Below are positions 1 through 50,762 of a stretch of DNA of 50,762 bases, one piece after another (the first letter of the stretch is position 1; every line of letters starts with the position of its first letter). This DNA is from a virus. The notes below the pieces were generated by a model. That model made no database searches. It was not told where the DNA came from and saw only the letters and a list, made by a program, of their open reading frames with translations. Position numbers and translations under genes: made by a program. Location: IMG/VR virus record IMGVR_UViG_3300041407_000073, positions 1 to 50,762 of that record; one strand, written 5' to 3'.

Positions 1-127
1 GTCTCCTGCTCTGAGTCATACCATGCTAGAGCGAAAGCCCCGCACAAACTCTTAACAGTGTCATCAACCCCAATCATGGACATGGAGTGGAAAATGTTAT
101 CACTGTCCACCTCAAACTTCTGATGGT
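1..127. repeat. direct terminal overlap, left copy
   Basis: These 127 bases are identical to the last 127 bases of the window (50636-50762). An exact overlap of 127 is typical of a de Bruijn assembler closing a circle at k=127. It therefore probably marks a complete circular or terminally redundant genome rather than a biological repeat. It lies inside a gene whose frame continues correctly across the join. Confidence 0.95.
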
Positions 128-470
128 CAATCAGGAGAGATTGGTTACGCAGCGTACCATTATGTACACCAGTGATGTGGTCGTGCTCAAACGGGTGAGC
201 ATTGACCGAGTTGATCTTACCCTTGGTAGCCCAACGATTATGCCCCAGCAGCACTGTAAGGCGCTTACGGAAGATTTCATCGAAGGACTTGTACTCATAC
301 AAGTCCCAAGGCGTTCCCACTTTCTTTACAACTGATGTCTGACCCCTTGCATCCACCCCAAGAATCCCGGTGGAGTGTGGGCCACGGATGGTATCAATCT
401 CCAGCAAACGCTTGAAGACGCCCTCTTCTTTCCCGCCGATTTCACCGGCCACTCCGACGATGCCACAAAT
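1..470 (-). CDS. class II glutamine amidotransferase, 5' part (continues at 50762..49732)
   Basis: This is the N-terminal part of a 457-residue protein that crosses the circular join. The glutaminase domain (N-terminal nucleophile hydrolase, GlmS/asparagine-synthase type) would release ammonia from glutamine. Numbered from the ATT codon at 470, it shows the nucleophile in MCGIVG (C2), RWATKG (R79, W80, T82), H92, HNG (N104, G105) and VDSD (D122-D124), all matching conserved GlmS positions. The only upstream in-frame ATG (491) has no ribosome site. GGAGG lies 8 nt before ATT, and only the ATT start puts the cysteine at residue 2. A promoter-like motif ends about 35 nt upstream. Neighbours are a class I amidotransferase upstream and two amidoligases downstream. 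The domain call is secure; the start is inferred. Confidence 0.9.
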   Translation of the reverse strand, partial: MCGIVGVAGEIGGKEEGVFKRLLEIDTIRGPHSTGILGVDARGQTSVVKKVGTPWDLYEYKSFDEIFRKRLTVLLGHNRWATKGKINSVNAHPFEHDHITGVHNGTLRNQSLLIDHQKFEVDSDNIFHSMSMIGVDDTVKSLCGAFALAWYDSEQE

Positions 471-539: not shown

Positions 540-635
540 TTACTGTACTTGCAGACCAACCGCCAGTACAAATGCAGCACACACAATGAACGTGCAAATA
601 ACCCAAGTCGCACAGACAGTGTATAGTGGTCTCAT
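540..635 (-). CDS. 31-residue membrane peptide
   Basis: This short gene is coupled to the preceding class I amidotransferase through an ATGA overlap (ATG at 635-633, TGA at 634-632). The product is almost one hydrophobic helix (roughly residues 5-28) with a basic start, MRPLY, suggesting an inner-membrane peptide. No family is recognised. It belongs to a set of very short one-helix proteins in this genome, each coupled to its neighbour. Confidence 0.5.
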   Translation of the reverse strand: MRPLYTVCATWVICTFIVCAAFVLAVGLQVQ

Positions 636-1267
636 GCTCGCAGCCCATGGCAGCGTTCAATCAGCTCGAAGTAGTACTCAAAGCATTCATGACCATAGTC
701 GAAGAATTCCGGGTGGGGTTGGAAGCACAAGGCCTTAGTACTGTCGTAATACACAACCTCTACGTCAATACCAACACCAGCGCGTTGTACAGCACCCTCA
801 TCATCAACGTACTCCTTGTCGCCGCCAAGGTTAGCCTCAGCAAGCAACACACCATCAGCGCCAATACGCATCATCTGATGGTGGGTGGAGCTTACGTCAA
901 TGGTACGGCCAGTAGCCAAATCAGTGAGGGGGTGGTTACGACCTGTAGCATGAGCACTAACATGCTGGTACATACTGCCCCCAGACATAACGTTAAGGAA
1001 CTGACCACCACGACAAATGCCCGCCATAGGAATGCCCATGCGCTGAGCAATGGCAAAGTAACCAGCTTCGAAGAGGTCACGTTTGACAGAGTTGCCAGTG
1101 TAAGGGTGTTGACCCTCACCATATAGCGCAGGGGTGACGTCCTCACCACCAGTGAATTGAATCAAGTCAGCTTGCAAGAAGTTGTCACTCAACTCCCAGC
1201 CAGCGTTCAGGAACATTTGACCATAGCCGCTGTGGTTACCACCGACAATGTAAACTTTAGGCTGCAT
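632..1267 (-). CDS. class I glutamine amidotransferase (peptidase C26-like)
   Basis: A 211-residue protein of the gamma-glutamyl-GABA hydrolase/class I amidotransferase fold. It shows the nucleophile elbow GICRGGQ (C85) and the catalytic pair in QPHPEF (H185, E187), with TGGEDV near residue 40 typical of the C26 family. It could hydrolyse gamma-glutamyl bonds or supply ammonia. Its place next to a class II amidotransferase and upstream of ATP-grasp and COOH-NH2 ligases suggests a role in making or trimming an amide-linked product. The start at 1267 is chosen because GGAG lies 7 nt upstream; a longer in-frame extension to 1357 lacks a site. It overlaps the upstream gene by 11 nt. Confidence 0.85.
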   Translation of the reverse strand: MQPKVYIVGGNHSGYGQMFLNAGWELSDNFLQADLIQFTGGEDVTPALYGEGQHPYTGNSVKRDLFEAGYFAIAQRMGIPMAGICRGGQFLNVMSGGSMYQHVSAHATGRNHPLTDLATGRTIDVSSTHHQMMRIGADGVLLAEANLGGDKEYVDDEGAVQRAGVGIDVEVVYYDSTKALCFQPHPEFFDYGHECFEYYFELIERCHGLRA

Positions 1268-2150
1268 TAATCTTCTCCATGAGGGTTGTGTTAGCCCACT
1301 TAGCCATAACTTCAATGGCTTTAGCGTAAGGCACCTGATTGTTATCTTTAACAGCAATGGCCTTGACGAAGGGGTTGAGGTTTACTTTAACTTCACCACG
1401 ACACAGGGCGTAAGGAAAGTTGTCTTGAACAAACTTGTAATAACTCCCGACCCTGTCCTCTCCATACATGGCGTCGTAGCCTTCATAGTTATAGCCAGCA
1501 GACAATAGGCCATTAGGCTTAGTCACCTTATGGTTAAGGAAGTTTTGCATGTTCTTCCAACCCATTACAGCAGGGTTAATAGAGCAGTGACCAGAGGACA
1601 GGCCAGTCCATGACGTAGCTGAGCCCTCATGTGGGTTGTTACTACAACTAACCGTGTGCCCAAGGAGGAAGGCAAGGTCTTCGTTAACCCCAGCCTTAGC
1701 CAAACTGTATGTAGCAGCAGCCACATACGTGTACTCCCACAAGCGTCTGAGAGCCACCATACCAGCCGCTACGAGGTTAGACGGGTGGTCACCAGAGGAC
1801 ACAGTGTATCGTTGCTCCAGCGCCTTCTCAGCGTCCTTGGTGATGAAGGTTTCAGCGTAGGGGCTACGGTTAAGTATGTAATCAACAAACCACAGCTCAA
1901 CTTCCTTGTCCAACACACGACCTGTGGCATAAACTTCACCTGTCATCAGCGCATTCACTATACGCTTAGAGTGGGTTAAGGAGGACAAGCCAGCATGACA
2001 AGCGTGGTTATTACTGAACTTGTGTACGCTGTCGTCCTTCTCAAACACTCCGACAATGGCAGTGTTCTCGCCCCACTTACCATTGCCGTCAAGCTTATCA
2101 ATCAAAGCCTTGGCAGCAACCTCTGTCCTTGCATCAAGTGACAAATCCAT
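1257..2150 (-). CDS. conserved-looking 297-residue protein of unknown function
   Basis: I do not recognise a family. The protein is soluble, with aromatic- and glycine-rich stretches and several cysteines and histidines in the middle (HTVSCSNNPHEG, SGHCSINP), but no classical metal or nucleotide motif. A GAGGG site precedes the ATG. It overlaps the class I amidotransferase by 11 nt, so the two are probably translated together. It may therefore act in, or be a substrate of, the amidoligase pathway; that is inference from position only. Confidence 0.7.
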   Translation of the reverse strand: MDLSLDARTEVAAKALIDKLDGNGKWGENTAIVGVFEKDDSVHKFSNNHACHAGLSSLTHSKRIVNALMTGEVYATGRVLDKEVELWFVDYILNRSPYAETFITKDAEKALEQRYTVSSGDHPSNLVAAGMVALRRLWEYTYVAAATYSLAKAGVNEDLAFLLGHTVSCSNNPHEGSATSWTGLSSGHCSINPAVMGWKNMQNFLNHKVTKPNGLLSAGYNYEGYDAMYGEDRVGSYYKFVQDNFPYALCRGEVKVNLNPFVKAIAVKDNNQVPYAKAIEVMAKWANTTLMEKINAA

Positions 2151-42566: not shown

Positions 42567-42732
42567 TGTTAAGTGCTCTTGTCACTACGTAGTAGGTTAC
42601 ACTATCATCCGTGTCGGTGTTGAGTTCATAGCACTTTTTAGCTGCTGAAGACTCCTCTTGATATATGTCTAGTAGTTCGTCCCTAGACGCATTTTCATCG
42701 CTCTCGTACAGTAGATAGACTTTAAGTCCCAT
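42559..42732 (-). CDS. small acidic protein, 57 aa
   Basis: ATG at 42732 overlaps the sigma-factor stop region, with GGAG 4 nt upstream. Acidic, alpha/beta (MGLKVYLLYESDENASRDEL). It overlaps the HNH start. No family is recognised. Confidence 0.55.
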   Translation of the reverse strand: MGLKVYLLYESDENASRDELLDIYQEESSAAKKCYELNTDTDDSVTYYVVTRALNSA

Positions 42733-43204
42733 ACCTCTCCTTTACCTCAGCTTTGAAGCGTAACACCACTTGCTTAATAGTCTTCACCTTGTAAGGGGTG
42801 ATGTTAGCAATATCTTTAGGGGAGTAGTGTTTGTCGAAGTAGAGGAGGAGGATTTCTTGGTGAGGCTCAATCTTCCCATCAACTAGCTCATAGATTTTAC
42901 GTATGAGCTCATCTTCCTTGAGGGTCATCTCCTGAGGGTCATACTGTTCCTCATCAAACTCCTCTCCCATACCAAATAACCATTCGTCACGTTTGAAGTC
43001 ACGAAGGGAGTTCTTAAGGATGGTGGAGAACCAAGCCCCGAGTTCCTTATGCTCAGGGTCGAAGGTGTCCCAGTAGGTGAGGGCCCTCACAAAGGCCTCC
43101 TGAAGCACGTCCTCGGCGTTCCATTGAGTACCTGCTCCATAGCTAAGGCGCCGTACTAAGTCGTCCCTACGCTCCTTGTAGAACTCCTCAAGCACTGTGT
43201 TCAC
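42722..43204 (-). CDS. ECF-like sigma factor
   Basis: About 160 residues with the two-domain sigma-70 layout. Region 2 is AEDVLQEAFVRALTYWDTF then GAWFSTILKNSLRDFKRD. After an acidic linker, region 4 is EILLLYFDKHYSPKDIANITPYKVKTIKQVV, a helix-turn-helix. It would redirect host RNA polymerase to phage promoters, as gp36 of phiEco32 does; no phage RNA polymerase is present. GTG at 43204 is favoured by GGGGG 5 nt upstream; TTG at 43216 is an alternative. Confidence 0.85.
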   Translation of the reverse strand: MNTVLEEFYKERRDDLVRRLSYGAGTQWNAEDVLQEAFVRALTYWDTFDPEHKELGAWFSTILKNSLRDFKRDEWLFGMGEEFDEEQYDPQEMTLKEDELIRKIYELVDGKIEPHQEILLLYFDKHYSPKDIANITPYKVKTIKQVVLRFKAEVKERYGT

Positions 43205-43410
43205 AATCTCCCCCAAGTTTGATGATCAGCTTCTGTCATGTAGCCATCATCACGATGACCCCTTTCAAACTGCATCAACTCTCCTTGGTGCCCGTCACAA
43301 ACATACATGTTAGGCATACCAATGCCAGAGCTACGCCATTTAGCAGGTGTTGGCAGGGCGCAGAGTGAGCAAACAGCCTTTTTATATTCACCAACCTTTA
43401 TCTGCTTCAC
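43201..43410 (-). CDS. small zinc-finger-like protein, 69 aa
   Basis: CSLC (14-17) and a later CDGH suggest a Cys/His metal site. The start is GTG, with AAGGGG 6 nt upstream. It is coupled to the sigma factor by a GTGA overlap, so it may act with it; that is speculation. Confidence 0.6.
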   Translation of the reverse strand: MKQIKVGEYKKAVCSLCALPTPAKWRSSGIGMPNMYVCDGHQGELMQFERGHRDDGYMTEADHQTWGRL

Positions 43411-46118: not shown

Positions 46119-47264
46119 TCAGAGTACTTCCTCATCTTCCGGTGGTTGCTCATCATGGTAGACAGCTTGAGCCCAAACAGGCACAGGGATTTTCTTAGCA
46201 CGGGGGATAGCAATACCAATGGCTTGCAGCTCTTCTAGGGCCTGTGGCTTAACAACCTCCACATCTCCTACAAAGCCCTTGGCGACCTCTTGTTGAGGGA
46301 GAGCCACCTCACCATTGACATACTGTCCAAAACGTCTCAGGTAGCCTTGCAGAGTCTCTCCTGCCAGCCCCGGGGCTGTGTTCACTTCCAACACATACGC
46401 TTTCTGTTCTTTATCGTTGAAGATGACGTCTACAGCACCGAAGTCAAGGCCCAATACCTTCACAGCGTCAACAGCCTGCTTGATTACGTCAGGAGGAGTG
46501 ATGCCGTCTTCGTTCCGAGCAAAGATGAAGCCATTGTCATGGTTACGAATCTTCCAGTTAATGGCGTCGTCTTCTACATCCTTACGGCGTGCCTTGCGCT
46601 GAATATCAACAGCCTCACCGCCACAGACGTGAATGCGGTATTCCTGTTTCTTAGGGACATACTTGACGAACAAGGGAGCTTTACGAATGGTGTTACGTTC
46701 CTCGTCCATATCTTCACCGGGCTTAACTGGTTCCACCAGACGGATGCCCGCTCCACTGTTACCGTTGAGGATGTGACGCTCTACAACAGTGAACCCTTGA
46801 CCTAACCATTGCATGGCCAAGTAACGGTCTGTAGTGAACTCTGGGGTACGTACAGAGTCGCCTAGTGCCGCAGGGGCCGGCTGCAATATGCTAATCAGGC
46901 CATACCGTGGGTGTTTAATGTCACCTACGAAGTCATCAGCCACCCCATCAAAGATGCCATGGTCAGGCTTCAGGTTGTGATTGGCTCCCGCAGCCCTTAC
47001 CTTACGATAGAGCTCTTTAGGGGGGTTCAGGGTTTGGAAGGCCTGAAGCTTATCACTGGCCCGAGCTACGGCTTGTGGGAGGTTCAAGATGGAGCACTTG
47101 CTCACCTCTTCACTCACCTTGCTGGCGCCCCAGTTGATAATTAGAGTGTCCTTCTTTCCTTTGAAGCGACTGTTCTTGTGGGCTACACGTTTGATGCCAA
47201 GACCAGCAGACAAGGCAGCTGACGACTCAGAGCCCGGTTTGTATGGGTAGATAAGGGCTTTCAC
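46119..47264 (-). CDS. ATP-grasp ligase (RimK-like)
   Basis: 381 residues. Gly-rich loop LNGNSGAGIRL (166-176), FVKYVP and EYRIHV (199-213), KARRKD, GLDFGAVDVIFN (272-283) and YVLEVNTAPG (290-299), the metal-binding end of an ATP-grasp site. These enzymes join a carboxylate to an amine through an acyl phosphate. The start is GTG, with GGAGG 7 nt upstream. It is last of the amide-forming genes in transcription order. Confidence 0.85.
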   Translation of the reverse strand: MKALIYPYKPGSESSAALSAGLGIKRVAHKNSRFKGKKDTLIINWGASKVSEEVSKCSILNLPQAVARASDKLQAFQTLNPPKELYRKVRAAGANHNLKPDHGIFDGVADDFVGDIKHPRYGLISILQPAPAALGDSVRTPEFTTDRYLAMQWLGQGFTVVERHILNGNSGAGIRLVEPVKPGEDMDEERNTIRKAPLFVKYVPKKQEYRIHVCGGEAVDIQRKARRKDVEDDAINWKIRNHDNGFIFARNEDGITPPDVIKQAVDAVKVLGLDFGAVDVIFNDKEQKAYVLEVNTAPGLAGETLQGYLRRFGQYVNGEVALPQQEVAKGFVGDVEVVKPQALEELQAIGIAIPRAKKIPVPVWAQAVYHDEQPPEDEEVL

Positions 47265-47431
47265 AGGTAATCCTCCTCAATGAAGCGTGATTGGAGACCC
47301 ACGCTATGTACAACGTGGTGGTCCCCTAAGGCCTTAACAAAGGTGTCAGCAGCCTCTCTGTTGTCAAAGGCTGCAACGACACAGTCCCAACCTAGGTCAG
47401 TAGATGTAACTACATAGATTGTAGGAAACAT
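47261..47431 (-). CDS. small hypothetical protein, 56 aa
   Basis: Alpha/beta and acidic ([21 protein letters not shown]). TAATG overlap with the amidoligase stop, with GGAGG 7 nt upstream. It also carries the ribosome site of the ATP-grasp gene. The function is unknown, possibly linked to the ligases. Confidence 0.55.
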   Translation of the reverse strand: MFPTIYVVTSTDLGWDCVVAAFDNREAADTFVKALGDHHVVHSVGLQSRFIEEDYL

Positions 47432-48318
47432 TAGTAGTCCTCCAGCGGTTCGTTCGGGAACTCCGTCCCAAGAGGGAACTCAAGCTCCCCAATCAGTTTC
47501 TTAGCCACCTCGTGGAAGTCTTCCCAGTCCACGCAGTAGGCTACGTCTTGAGCACGGCGCATACCGTCACACAACATACGTTCATAACCTTCGAACATAT
47601 ACTGCTCAGCATGTACGCCGAGGGCGTTAGTCAGGAAGGTACGTGCCTCACCTTCACTGAAACCCTCAATGATCTTGTCAGGGCTAGTGTATTGCTTAGC
47701 CACCTCACGGAGGTTCAACAGCACAGCAGCCCAATTATAGATGAGCTCAAGGTCACGTGTGCCACGCATGGCACGGAACTCAAGGCTACCATAGGTGCCT
47801 AAGGCCTTAACGTTCATTGACGAGTAGCGCAACTGGTCAGTGACCAATGACCGGAAGTTCTTGTCTTCAGCGGCATTTTGCAACTGAGAGAGAAGGTAGT
47901 CAGCGTCACCTGCCCGAAGGCAGAAGAGGTTCCCTTCACGGTGTTGACCACAATGCTTAACCAACACCTCTTCCAAGATGAGGTAGAGCGTCATGAAGTT
48001 ATACAACTCAATGATGTTTAGGTCTTGCACGTTAACGTGAACATGCACACCAGCACGCACTGAGTCATGCACATTGGAGTCGTACTTGTTGTACTGTACC
48101 GAGAGGTACTTAAGAGCAATACGAGCATCCTTGAGGCTCATAGGGCGTTCTAGGACATACTCAATGTTCTCCGGCCCACGCAACGAACCGTCATGCTCCA
48201 TCTTCCAGTACTTATCCAGCTTCGGAAGGCGTTCACCTTCTACTTCAATCTCGATGCCAACGTCCCCGTCGGTCTTATACTTACGCGGGAGATTGAACCA
48301 CTGCATAACTGTTTTCAT
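47431..48318 (-). CDS. amidoligase (COOH-NH2 ligase, glutamine-synthetase-like fold)
   Basis: 295 residues with family hallmarks: [10 protein letters not shown] (20-29), [20 protein letters not shown] (40-59), AGVHVHVNV (89-97) and [13 protein letters not shown] (177-189). These acidic and histidine residues bind metal and ATP in glutamine-synthetase-like ligases, which form amide bonds between a carboxylate and an amine. AAGGAG lies 10 nt upstream. It is one of two such ligases, with two amidotransferases upstream. Confidence 0.85.
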
Positions 48319-48319
48319 A

Positions 48320-48862
48320 CTATAGCGACTCCTTCAGTGCCTCTTTAAGGTATTGGTACTTACTGGACAATACAACCTGTCCGTTGTCCAAGACACCAAC
48401 AGGACGGTTACCTCCCTTGTGGAAGATTTGTAGCTGGCTATCAACAGCCCAATGGCGGTGCCATGCCATCGACTTAACCTTCTTCACAGCTTCAACAGCG
48501 CCATTGAAGGTTGGATAGTCCCCAAGGATGCACTGACGCAACACATCGTAAGGGATGCGGTTAGCGTCAACCCCACTAAGCGAAGTGAAGTTGCCTCGGC
48601 GCAGCCCTTGACGCCAGTCACGACGCATTGGGATGCGGGTGAGGTAGCAAGCCTGCTTGTTGTAGTTGCAGTAGCCCAAGGGCACAGGCTTGAGGTCCAG
48701 CTCTTCCGTTGTGCATGTCTTGATGGTGTTGAAGTCATCAAGAGTGGCGTAGTTAGTCACCATACCAATGCCAACCCGGAAGATGTATACAGGCTCACCC
48801 TTCAGCCTGACAATAGTCTCAGTCAGGCGGCTGTTGGCATACTCGTAATCATCTGAGTACAT
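48320..48862 (-). CDS. hypothetical protein between the two amidoligases, 180 aa
   Basis: No family is recognised. It is an alpha/beta protein with [26 protein letters not shown] and a C-terminal [23 protein letters not shown]. It lies one or two bases from each amidoligase gene, so it is probably part of the same pathway, as a partner or substrate carrier. AAGG lies 9 nt upstream. Confidence 0.65.
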
Positions 48863-48863
48863 G

Positions 48864-49721
48864 TTAGGCTACCTTCTCAAAGCCATCGTATACGCTGCGG
48901 GCCTTCTTAAAGCCCGGTGGAACTTCAATGCCCAGTCGGTCAAAGATGTAACGGATGTGGTACATGTTTGGGTGTACGTCCTTCATGGCCTTTTTAACCA
49001 AGTCCGAATGACCCTCGTACGCCGCGTAGCCTTCGAACAGGTCGTTAATACCTTTCTTGGTCATACGGTACACCCATGCCATGAGCTCCTCAGACTGCAA
49101 CCAGGCATTGCTGAGCACACGGTACTCTACACCGTAAGGCTTAGGACGGAATGCCCCAGCAGCACCGTACAGAGTGCGACGTTTGGTATCAGGGTCATAC
49201 AACAGGCTACCCAAGCCCAAGTAGTAGTCTAGCTGCTTGGCGGCCATGATGCATGCTTCACGGTGACCGGGGTCATTGACGTCAACGTCCTTAGTCCAGC
49301 CAATGTGAACGTGCCCAGCCCCTGTACGGAAGTTGACATCACCATTAGGACGTGGGTTGGCAGCCCCATCAAGCCACGCATTGAAGTCAGGCTCACAGCC
49401 CAACTCCTTAGCTTCCTTAGGCTGCTTCTTCATGTGAGCAGCAGTGAAGTTAGCTACAGGCACAGGCACCATCTCATAGCCCGGAACCATCTCACCCATG
49501 ATGCGCATCACTTCCGTAATGTTGGTGATGAACTCCTGCTCGTTCTTAGCCGGGTCAATGTTGAACTCCAACGCCATGCCATCTACTTGCACAGCACCTA
49601 GATGCACTTTGTGGGGGCTCTTCTTGTCGCCGGGTATAAGGCCATGCGCGGAGTGGAAGGATTTCTTACCAATCTTGCGGACAAAACATTCTGGGTCCGC
49701 GCCAACGAGAATGTCTAGCAT
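48864..49721 (-). CDS. amidoligase, phiEco32-like COOH-NH2 ligase type 2
   Basis: 285 residues. VGADPECF (6-13), QVDGMALEFNIDPA (45-58), RTGAGHVHIGW (132-142) and YGVEYRVLSNAWL (196-208) match the phage-type COOH-NH2 ligase family named after phiEco32. The acidic and HxH residues are the expected metal/ATP site. GAGG lies upstream. It follows directly after the class II amidotransferase. Confidence 0.85.
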   Translation of the reverse strand: MLDILVGADPECFVRKIGKKSFHSAHGLIPGDKKSPHKVHLGAVQVDGMALEFNIDPAKNEQEFITNITEVMRIMGEMVPGYEMVPVPVANFTAAHMKKQPKEAKELGCEPDFNAWLDGAANPRPNGDVNFRTGAGHVHIGWTKDVDVNDPGHREACIMAAKQLDYYLGLGSLLYDPDTKRRTLYGAAGAFRPKPYGVEYRVLSNAWLQSEELMAWVYRMTKKGINDLFEGYAAYEGHSDLVKKAMKDVHPNMYHIRYIFDRLGIEVPPGFKKARSVYDGFEKVA

Positions 49722-49731
49722 TTGTATTACC

Positions 49732-50762
49732 TCAATGTTTAACTTGGTTGCTTTTAAGGGACGCTTCGATAAACTCTTGCACTACAGGCAAATCTTTACA
49801 GTCTTGACAGATGAAGTTGGACTTATCCAACCATACAATCTCATCTGAGTCTTCGATGAACGCTATCTGTTTGCAGTTAGCACAACCACCACACACTGCA
49901 AGGTCAAACTCTTCTTCGTTTACAACCTTACCACCGTATACAATGGCACAGTCTGGGTCATCTTCAGGGACGTCAGAGCCAATCTCGGCGGTGGTTTCAG
50001 CAATGGTACGTGGGTCAATTACAGCATAGCTGAGGTCAGGGTTACCAGCCACAGACGAGAAACTGCGAATCTTCCCTTCAAAGTAGCAAGAGCCCCCAAC
50101 AAGCCAGTCCCACATCTTCTGGTCTTGCTCGCAGTAGACACGCAACTCTACGTTACAATCATCTTGTGTAGGGAAACACTGAACGTAACGTTGGCCGGTT
50201 GCAGTGCTACTTTCGGACGAGACGAAGAACTCTACCCGTTCCTGCATGATCAATTCGGACACCGTTACGTTCCCGGTCTTTTTTGTGTCAGTGCCCTCCT
50301 TGTTGCCCTTAGCTGCATCAAACACGTTACCAGTAGCAGACTTACCACCAGTAGCTGTGCTCCCTGATGTGCTGTACGTCTTTGGCGCAATGACGTATTT
50401 ATGCAGCTCAAGGTCACGCACCTTAGTATTGTCCAACTCCTTAGGTGAATAGCTCATTTGGATGTTGTAGCTCATCAACACACCAGAGGCTGGCTCGAAG
50501 ATTGGGTGGTGTTTGATGCCAGCAATGGCAAGAGTAACTTCCAACATCCATGACTCAGACGCCCAGAAGATTGTTTTACGGCTCTCGTTCATGCAGATGT
50601 ACAAGGGGCGCTCTGTATTGCGTACAAAGTTCATTGTCTCCTGCTCTGAGTCATACCATGCTAGAGCGAAAGCCCCGCACAAACTCTTAACAGTGTCATC
50701 AACCCCAATCATGGACATGGAGTGGAAAATGTTATCACTGTCCACCTCAAACTTCTGATGGT
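49732..50762 (-). CDS. class II glutamine amidotransferase, 3' part (begins at 470 across the join)
   Basis: The frame continues from position 1. This part holds the end of the glutaminase domain (GAFALAWYDSEQETMNFVRN; then a serine/threonine-rich linker TYSTSGSTATGG), followed by a C-terminal region of ~150 residues. That region has a zinc-finger-like end, CGGCANC and a later CQDC. The linker suggests two separable modules, and the tail may dock on a ligase or a substrate. It precedes the type 2 ligase by 10 nt. Confidence 0.88.
   Translation of the reverse strand, partial: HQKFEVDSDNIFHSMSMIGVDDTVKSLCGAFALAWYDSEQETMNFVRNTERPLYICMNESRKTIFWASESWMLEVTLAIAGIKHHPIFEPASGVLMSYNIQMSYSPKELDNTKVRDLELHKYVIAPKTYSTSGSTATGGKSATGNVFDAAKGNKEGTDTKKTGNVTVSELIMQERVEFFVSSESSTATGQRYVQCFPTQDDCNVELRVYCEQDQKMWDWLVGGSCYFEGKIRSFSSVAGNPDLSYAVIDPRTIAETTAEIGSDVPEDDPDCAIVYGGKVVNEEEFDLAVCGGCANCKQIAFIEDSDEIVWLDKSNFICQDCKDLPVVQEFIEASLKSNQVKH
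50636..50762. repeat. direct terminal overlap, right copy
   Basis: Identical to positions 1-127; see that entry. When the circle is closed, this copy should be removed. Confidence 0.95.

Follow-up and report, generated by a model that had tools for sequence, protein, structure and literature searches.

The viral record IMGVR_UViG_3300041407_000073, analysed over its full length of 50,762 nt (the window), is a circular podovirus of the Zobellviridae type. Bases 1–127 are identical to the last 127 bases of the record (50636–50762), so the assembly is circularised at 50,635 bp, and the gene for a class II glutamine amidotransferase spans the join. This gene belongs to a leftward unit on the minus strand that also holds a C26-type enzyme, a COOH-NH2 ligase, an Amidoligase_2, an ATP-grasp ligase, two proteins without recognised function (U180 and U297, of 180 and 297 aa) and small ORFs. 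The unit begins with U297 (1257..2150), which lies directly upstream of the C26 gene (632..1267) and overlaps it by 11 nt. The C26 stop codon overlaps the start (ATGA) of a 31-aa hydrophobic ORF (540..635), recognised by sequence. Next come the class II gene (5′ part 470..1, 3′ part 50635..49732), a phiEco32-type COOH-NH2 ligase (48864..49721), U180 (48320..48862), Amidoligase_2 (47431..48318), a 56-aa ORF with a weak match to PHROG 14326 (47261..47431) that overlaps both neighbours, and the ATP-grasp ligase (46119..47264), which has a GTG start. Coupling is tight: U180, the amidoligase, the 56-aa ORF and the ATP-grasp gene abut or overlap by 1–4 nt. An Rfam search gave no match. A sequence-only reading of this DNA had proposed five enzyme classes in a tightly coupled leftward unit running from 1267 to 46119. 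The coupling is as it described, and Pfam, PHROG and RimK/MptN matches confirm the classes, their places and their strand; the unit is real, but its upstream end lies at 2150.

The ligase families were confirmed by profile searches. The Pfam matches of the COOH-NH2 ligase (COOH-NH2_lig, PF14395, 8.5e-08; PHROG 3815, 2.2e-85) and of Amidoligase_2 (PF12224, 3.4e-07; PHROG 7469, 9e-99) are above cut-off, and both proteins are assigned a glutamine-synthetase-like fold by family membership. A direct hhalign comparison of their own alignments detected no homology (2% probability), so the statement that they share a fold rests on Pfam and literature classification. Residues D9, E11, D47, E52, H137, H139, R192, E199 and R201 of the COOH-NH2 ligase are present in 20/20 sequences, as are E23, E25, E27, H92, H94, E180 and R182 of Amidoligase_2. 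The amidoligase also matched a glutathione S-transferase (E 0.006), which we regard as a chance hit. The ATP-grasp protein is sub-threshold in Pfam and was identified through PHROG 2599 (2.1e-84) and RimK/MptN families (~2e-07). It is closest to RimK/MptN-type alpha-L-glutamate ligases, with PDB matches to RimK (5zct, 4iwx), and its RimK/GshB-type motifs (E208-x-R210, metal-binding D279 and E293-x-N295) are found in all 20 sequences compared. Membership of the R2K ATP-grasp clade was rejected, R2K_2 scoring 21.4 bits where the cut-off is 26.2.

The class II protein matches GATase_6/7 in Pfam (3.6e-17) and has the N-terminal Cys of Ntn enzymes. Its gene starts with AUU (470–468), immediately followed by the catalytic Cys codon (467–465) and preceded, 8 nt upstream, by a GGAGG Shine-Dalgarno sequence; the sequence-only reading had missed this start. 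The glutamine-binding HNG motif and D129 occur in 22/22 class II proteins, and the N-terminal Cys in 19/22 as annotated. Two of the three exceptions, IME180 and Klyazma, lack the cysteine solely by a misplaced annotated start, which the AUU/AUC start explains. A C-terminal cysteine cluster (C418, C440, C443), probably a zinc ribbon, is kept in 19 of 22 relatives. AUU or AUC starts the class II gene in 26/85 relatives, this record included, and is almost never found in neighbouring cassette genes; in named phages the codon is AUG (GP100), UUG (PA11) or AUC (IME180 and O4). The type of start codon has switched at least 12 times on a tree. No earlier report of a recurrent AUU/AUC start in this gene was found in the literature, and such recurrence is an uncommon example of control exerted at the start codon, one that is simple to test.

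The C26 protein matches Peptidase_C26/GATase in Pfam (PF07722, 4.7e-18; 66.2 bits against a cut-off of 20.5), and its Cys-His-Glu triad (C85, H185, E187) is intact in 12/12 proteins compared. Its nearest PDB relatives are Lin1909, the entries 7d4r/7d50/7d53, and PuuD, a gamma-glutamyl-GABA hydrolase. The three entries were deposited as probable glutamine amidotransferases; we take them to be SpuA of P. aeruginosa. The protein also resembles gamma-glutamyl-CDP-amidate hydrolase, and CPSase small subunit models match it weakly. Hence, what had been read as a class I amidotransferase would be better named a C26 gamma-glutamyl hydrolase. C26 domains occur in true amidotransferases too, which counts against a gamma-glutamyl reading.

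The phages that carry the cassette offer a second view of this enzyme. A C26 protein or a GGCT-type gamma-glutamyl cyclotransferase is encoded by 16/16 cassette phages examined (GGCT only in 5, C26 only in 8, both in 3). Against this, both are absent from 1 of 56 upstream-eligible environmental loci. This record has no match to GGCT (PF06094) and carries C26 instead, as PA11-type phages do. By genus, GGCT and C26 records add up to the cassette records for Pseudomonas (105+16=121), Vibrio (7+15=22), Escherichia (93+0=93) and Klebsiella (0+3=3), these sums comparing totals per genus and not overlap record by record. GGCT presence was treated as a variant feature of the cassette, not a defining one. 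A few phages whose cassette status lies outside this comparison, Bacillus phages for example, encode GGCT as well, a point against the gamma-glutamyl reading. Two unrelated enzymes substituting for each other indicate a gamma-glutamyl amide; the cutting enzymes point to bonds of the glutamate side chain. With C26 hydrolase-like and replaced by GGCT elsewhere, the claim of two nitrogen-releasing enzymes gives way to a single ammonia-releasing one, the class II protein.

U180 and U297 are conserved, dedicated cassette proteins; the sequence-only reading had noted two unrecognised proteins without seeing that they are conserved members. U180 is present in 79/80 environmental loci, always between the two ligases, and is an invariant core gene of the cassette. 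Its relatives were found by an alignment-based scan, single-sequence scans having given nothing. The predicted model (pLDDT 97, pTM 0.89) has no confident match in the PDB, partial SH3/Tudor-like matches being ignored. An alignment of 40 rows gives C51, S96, R135, E139, G154 and H188 as conserved residues of U297, and its predicted model (pLDDT 90, pTM 0.90) has no match in the PDB. Its closest structural relatives among viral proteins, where named, come from cassette-bearing phages, and the fold is also found in RIO-1, LAh_8, GAP52 and CVT22. Comparison of U297 with the neighbour proteins of phiEco32 and LUZ24 is weak by profile (14% and 3%) and better by structure. Because the predicted folds match no solved structure, the roles of both proteins are guesses.

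The linkage of the cassette is not chance. All 537 best family matches at the 80 environmental loci lie on one strand, and all five core families are found in 61 of the 62 loci with enough flank. Among these 61, the gene order is that of this record in 49; the remaining 12 have their best ATP-grasp match upstream, and it is weak. The genes are therefore linked rather than scattered, which supports the proposal of one pathway. Practically every cassette member compared keeps its catalytic residues. The four core enzymes match 312–342 annotated phage records with nearly identical genus counts. The cassette is present in several hundred phages with sequenced genomes, including many phages of Pseudomonas and E. 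coli. Among 84,980 species of bacteria and archaea scanned, only 10 relatives came up, mostly on short MAG contigs which themselves carry the cassette. PADLOC gave no match for the seven proteins, and anti-phage defence was set aside.

What might such a unit make? We give roughly even credence to a single glutamate-centred amide pathway that yields a gamma-glutamyl-linked compound or tag in mid infection. In it, the three ligases, two of glutamine-synthetase fold and one a RimK-like ATP-grasp enzyme, would spend ATP to join carboxyl to amino groups, with a gamma-glutamyl amide most likely among the bonds formed, and the class II amidotransferase would split glutamine to supply ammonia, or glutamate, for one step. 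C26 (GGCT in other phages) would then take off the gamma-glutamyl group, as PuuD does on PuuA products and BtrG on BtrJ products. U180 is probably a ligase partner, and U297, with its conserved Cys, Arg, Glu and His, is perhaps an enzyme. The product would be a cytoplasmic small compound or tag; we infer this chemistry, the order of steps and the timing for this phage. In phage PaP3, ORF40 is the primase/helicase, and ORFs 32–48 peak at 10–30 min (PMC4707531); PaP3p47, the U180 counterpart in the UFV-P2 table (PMC3890496), is presumably ORF47. A bolder version is possible, if on the doubtful side: by protect/deprotect logic the phage would make a novel metabolite or tag protected by a gamma-glutamyl group, using U180 and U297, two families not seen in cells, and its output would be set by AUU/AUC initiation of the class II amidotransferase that is weak and sensitive to IF3, a control that phages would have acquired or given up a dozen times or more.

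There are several other explanations. First, the cassette could rewrite peptidoglycan peptides or precursors, giving a changed wall that blocks superinfection. This published hypothesis is stated in PMC5498523 and PMC11945000, which describe a putative peptidoglycan modification cassette, and, citing Iyer 2009, in PMC10580990. The set was already in the literature and is less novel than the sequence-only reading implied. The named hosts found are mostly Gram-negative, and the precursors of peptidoglycan, which contain a gamma-glutamyl bond, reside in the cytosol. However, GGCT acts only on L-gamma-glutamyl units whose alpha-amino group is free, and in the stem peptide L-Ala acylates the amino group of D-Glu, so that GGCT is unlikely to cut the stem bond itself. 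The timing in PaP3 points to the middle phase and not to the earliest one, and the cassette showed no component that is exported or resembles a Mur ligase. We consider a cell-wall role unlikely; with C26 and GGCT replacing each other, the chemistry is narrowed to gamma-glutamyl bonds, and the cell-wall label comes into question. Second, the ligases could place a glutamyl or peptide tag on a phage or host protein, as RimK does, with C26 or GGCT editing the tag. The ATP-grasp protein has RimK and graspetide ligases as its nearest matches, and phage ATP-grasp enzymes of the R2K clade have been proposed to act on proteins (PMC4431377). Nevertheless, the R2K_2 score falls short of the cut-off, nothing like a precursor or carrier protein was recognised, and two further ligases and an amidotransferase exceed what RimK tagging needs, making this quite improbable. 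Third, an auxiliary nitrogen or amino-acid salvage set (AMG) that boosts glutamate or ammonia supply, as proposed for Phage-ZRK32 (PMC10945688), is very unlikely: three ATP-consuming ligases, a fixed set and two dedicated proteins fit a specific product better, and relatives are scarce in the cellular species scanned. Finally, biosynthesis of a hypermodified DNA base was rejected as scarcely credible: the cassette adjoins primase-polymerase genes and amide-forming enzymes are known in some hypermodification pathways, but a thymidylate-synthase-type (hydroxymethylase) gene is absent from 17/17 cassette phages and no other base-modification gene was recognised in the proteins scanned. For the gamma-glutamyl pathway, the narrowed chemistry makes the question of the product directly testable by targeted metabolomics.

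The unit is a further case of an already described cassette, to whose description this analysis adds the C26/GGCT replacement and the AUU/AUC start. A peptidoglycan modification cassette of RIO-1/PSA-HP1, phiEco32, 7-11, LUZ24, PA11 and CW02 was reportedly described by Hardies in 2013. The COOH-NH2 ligase, Amidoligase_2, ATP-grasp ligase and class II amidotransferase are linked on one strand here, as in phiEco32/RIO-1-type phages, and neighbourhood comparison bears out the link to that group: the cassette described for RIO-1/PSA-HP1 and the other phages just named has the same four core enzymes on one strand near primase/helicase, with the same gene at the U180 position between the two ligases. 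The cutting enzyme differs, this record and PA11-type phages having C26 without GGCT, whereas RIO-1, phiEco32 and LUZ24 have GGCT without C26. Paundecimvirus PA11, TC6, O4 and IME180 have the same genes as this record, and cassette genes have been annotated singly in PA11-type phages (PMC6209634). Pseudomonas phage GP100 has the same genes in the same order, with protein identities of 47–76%, but there, unlike in this record, an HNH gene separates the class II gene from the COOH-NH2 ligase. No biochemistry of any cassette member was found in the literature. The closest functional parallels are PuuA-PuuD and BtrJ-BtrG, in which a ligase makes a gamma-glutamyl amide and a C26 (or GGCT) enzyme removes it. 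The cassette may work alike, making and removing such an amide, but unlike these pairs it has two glutamine-synthetase-fold ligases together with an ATP-grasp ligase and a class II amidotransferase.

The first and last 127 bases of the window (1-127 and 50636-50762) proved on comparison to be an exact terminal repeat, so this IMG/VR virus record represents a circle of 50,635 bp, and the class II amidotransferase gene crosses its join. The plus strand carries the late genes, whose family matches are to terminase, head-tail adaptor, major head, tail and internal virion proteins; the minus strand carries the amide-chemistry cassette and replication genes. The sequence-only reading had called the virus a podovirus; this agrees with the late-gene families and with the closest annotated relatives, Pseudomonas phage GP100 (Zobellviridae) and the PA11/TC6/O4/IME180 group. 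A Sigma-70 region 2 protein (an ECF-like sigma factor; 42722-43216, minus strand) is encoded close to the primase gene, as it is in RIO-1, Klyazma and phiEco32-type phages.

The cassette lies wholly on the minus strand. Reading from 2150, its first gene encodes a 297-aa protein, U297 (1257-2150), followed by the Peptidase_C26 enzyme (C26; 632-1267), a 31-aa hydrophobic ORF that overlaps the C26 stop and is a possible single-span membrane peptide (540-635), the class II amidotransferase (470..1 and 50635..49732, over the join), the COOH-NH2 ligase (48864-49721), the 180-aa protein U180 between the two ligases (48320-48862), Amidoligase_2 (47431-48318), a 56-aa ORF (47261-47431) and the ATP-grasp ligase (46119-47264). 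The PHROG matched by the 56-aa ORF (1.4e-9) bears the label “RNA ligase”, which is probably misleading because the ORF is too short for a ligase. Family matches bear out every enzyme named from sequence alone, and alignments show active-site residues intact in essentially every member compared. U180 occurs in 79 of 80 environmental loci; its AlphaFold model (pLDDT 97, pTM 0.89) has no confident match in the PDB, and that of U297 (pLDDT 90, pTM 0.90) has no match there. Where named, the significant or near-significant viral-library matches of U297 are to the cassette phages CW02, CVT22, RIO-1, LAh_8, 4_4572 and Cronobacter GAP52, with weaker ones to Proteus 3H10_20, EP335 and PaP4. Its aligned conserved residues (C51, R135, E139, H188) are compatible with an enzyme.

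How constant is this set? Among 50,697 phage records, the class II amidotransferase matched 342, the COOH-NH2 ligase 316, the amidoligase 334 and ATP-grasp 312, with almost equal counts per genus. The environmental loci are the best 80 of 454 IMG/VR relatives confirmed by a profile-guided scan; being the most window-like, they represent the window's relatives rather than cassettes in general. In them, all 537 best family matches fall on one strand. With enough flank, 61 of 62 loci have all five core families, 49 of these in the order class II, COOH-NH2 ligase, U180, amidoligase, ATP-grasp. For the remaining 12 (L033, L036, L041, L047, L056-L058, L061, L066, L075, L076, L078), the top ATP-grasp match is low-scoring and upstream of the class II gene; these loci may have switched to another ATP-grasp enzyme. 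Annotation of more distant cassettes (phiEco32, LUZ24, 7-11, LAh_9, Slicky01 and others) shows a gene of ~200 aa retained between the two ligases. Rhizobium and Sinorhizobium phages (L009, 11807-12943; L024, 1916-3022) have, beside the ATP-grasp gene, a second class II-like amidotransferase lacking the C-terminal Cys cluster. When one genome from each of 84,980 species of bacteria and archaea was scanned, no more than 10 relatives turned up: seven MAG contigs with several cassette genes, one short MAG contig whose only further matches are marginal, and two remote matches (a Syntrophothermus MAG and Brevibacillus) without other cassette genes. Within the reach of that scan, the cassette is phage-borne.

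The most unexpected new element of the cassette is a recurrent AUU/AUC start. In Ntn-type class II amidotransferases, the mature protein must begin with the catalytic Cys, which identifies the codon just before it as the start. Across 85 phages or loci, that codon is ATG in 49, ATT in 20, TTG in 10 and ATC in 6. The window has ATT (470-468, minus strand) with GGAGG 8 nt upstream, and an ATG eight codons ahead of the Cys has no Shine-Dalgarno (SD) sequence. AUU or AUC directly before the Cys codon, with a good SD, is likewise found in L002, L012, L015, L016, L017, L028 and 19 other loci; for 22 of the 26 ATT/ATC genes, the stretch from the preceding in-frame stop to the Cys offers no ATG, GTG or TTG. 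When one rule was applied to every cassette gene, the only SD-preceded start found was non-canonical in 23 of 71 class II genes, versus 1/79 for COOH-NH2 ligase, 0/76 for U180, 0/43 for amidoligase, 1/63 for ATP-grasp and 0/66 for C26 (Fisher p ~5e-17, ignoring kinship). On a tree built from the two ligases, ATT/ATC requires at least 17 changes, 12 of which well-supported branches make unavoidable, so the start has switched many times. Assembly artefact is argued against by the ATC of the cultured phages O4/IME180 and Klyazma. Because of the AUC start, the database annotations of the class II enzyme in IME180 and Klyazma begin too late and miss the catalytic Cys (L002, 14014-15285; L012, 7336-8589). 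IF3 normally discriminates against AUU and AUC starts, as established for infC, and a simple reading is that translation of the class II enzyme would be weak or IF3-sensitive. We found no earlier report of this start in a search limited to open-access papers.

What might the cassette do? C26, taken as a class I amidotransferase in the sequence-only reading, is probably a gamma-glutamyl hydrolase, which makes that reading's count of nitrogen-releasing enzymes wrong. Among solved structures, C26 is nearest to Lin1909, to 7d4r/7d50/7d53 (SpuA of P. aeruginosa, entered in the PDB as probable glutamine amidotransferases) and to PuuD, the gamma-glutamyl-GABA hydrolase. Weak NCBIfam matches are to gamma-glutamyl-CDP-amidate hydrolase and also to CPSase small subunits. 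The stronger argument is replacement by gamma-glutamyl cyclotransferase (GGCT). Searches of 16 cassette phages (PF06094 for GGCT, PF07722 for C26) found C26 without GGCT in eight (the window, three IMG/VR relatives, GP100, IME180, BA6, Klyazma), GGCT without C26 in five (LUZ24, phiEco32, 7-11, LAh_9, RIO-1), both in three (a Rhizobium phage, CW02, an Alcaligenes phage) and neither in none. GGCT and C26 counts add up to the cassette records in Pseudomonas (105 + 16 = 121), Vibrio (7 + 15 = 22), Escherichia (93 + 0 = 93) and Klebsiella (0 + 3 = 3), an agreement of sums rather than record-by-record overlap. One or the other is present in 55 of 56 environmental loci with upstream flank. Thus, two unrelated enzymes whose common chemistry is gamma-glutamyl amide cleavage occupy one place in the cassette. 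The best-supported mechanism, which we consider to have an even chance of being right, is that the cassette enzymes would synthesise a glutamate-centred amide, from which C26 or GGCT would then remove the gamma-glutamyl group. A plain cell-wall reading, with peptidoglycan as the target, is doubted mainly because GGCT relies on attack by the glutamyl unit's own alpha-amino group, which must be free; D-Glu in the peptidoglycan stem has no free one.

Peptidoglycan does figure in earlier accounts: for PSA-HP1, the set was named a seven-gene peptidoglycan modification cassette, with PA11 among the listed carriers (PMC5498523). Cassette genes were also annotated in TC6 (PMC6209634) and UFV-P2 (PMC3890496), the cassette has been discussed in terms of superinfection exclusion (PMC10580990), and a different group interprets genes of this type as AMGs of nitrogen metabolism (PMC10945688); we found no experimentally established product in the literature. 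PaP3, a LUZ24-type phage whose ORF40 is the primase/helicase, shows peak expression of ORFs 32-48 at 10-30 min after infection (PMC4707531). Because the cassette sits just past primase/helicase, middle-phase expression is likely. The cassette of the window is already known in kind, and the window is a further member.
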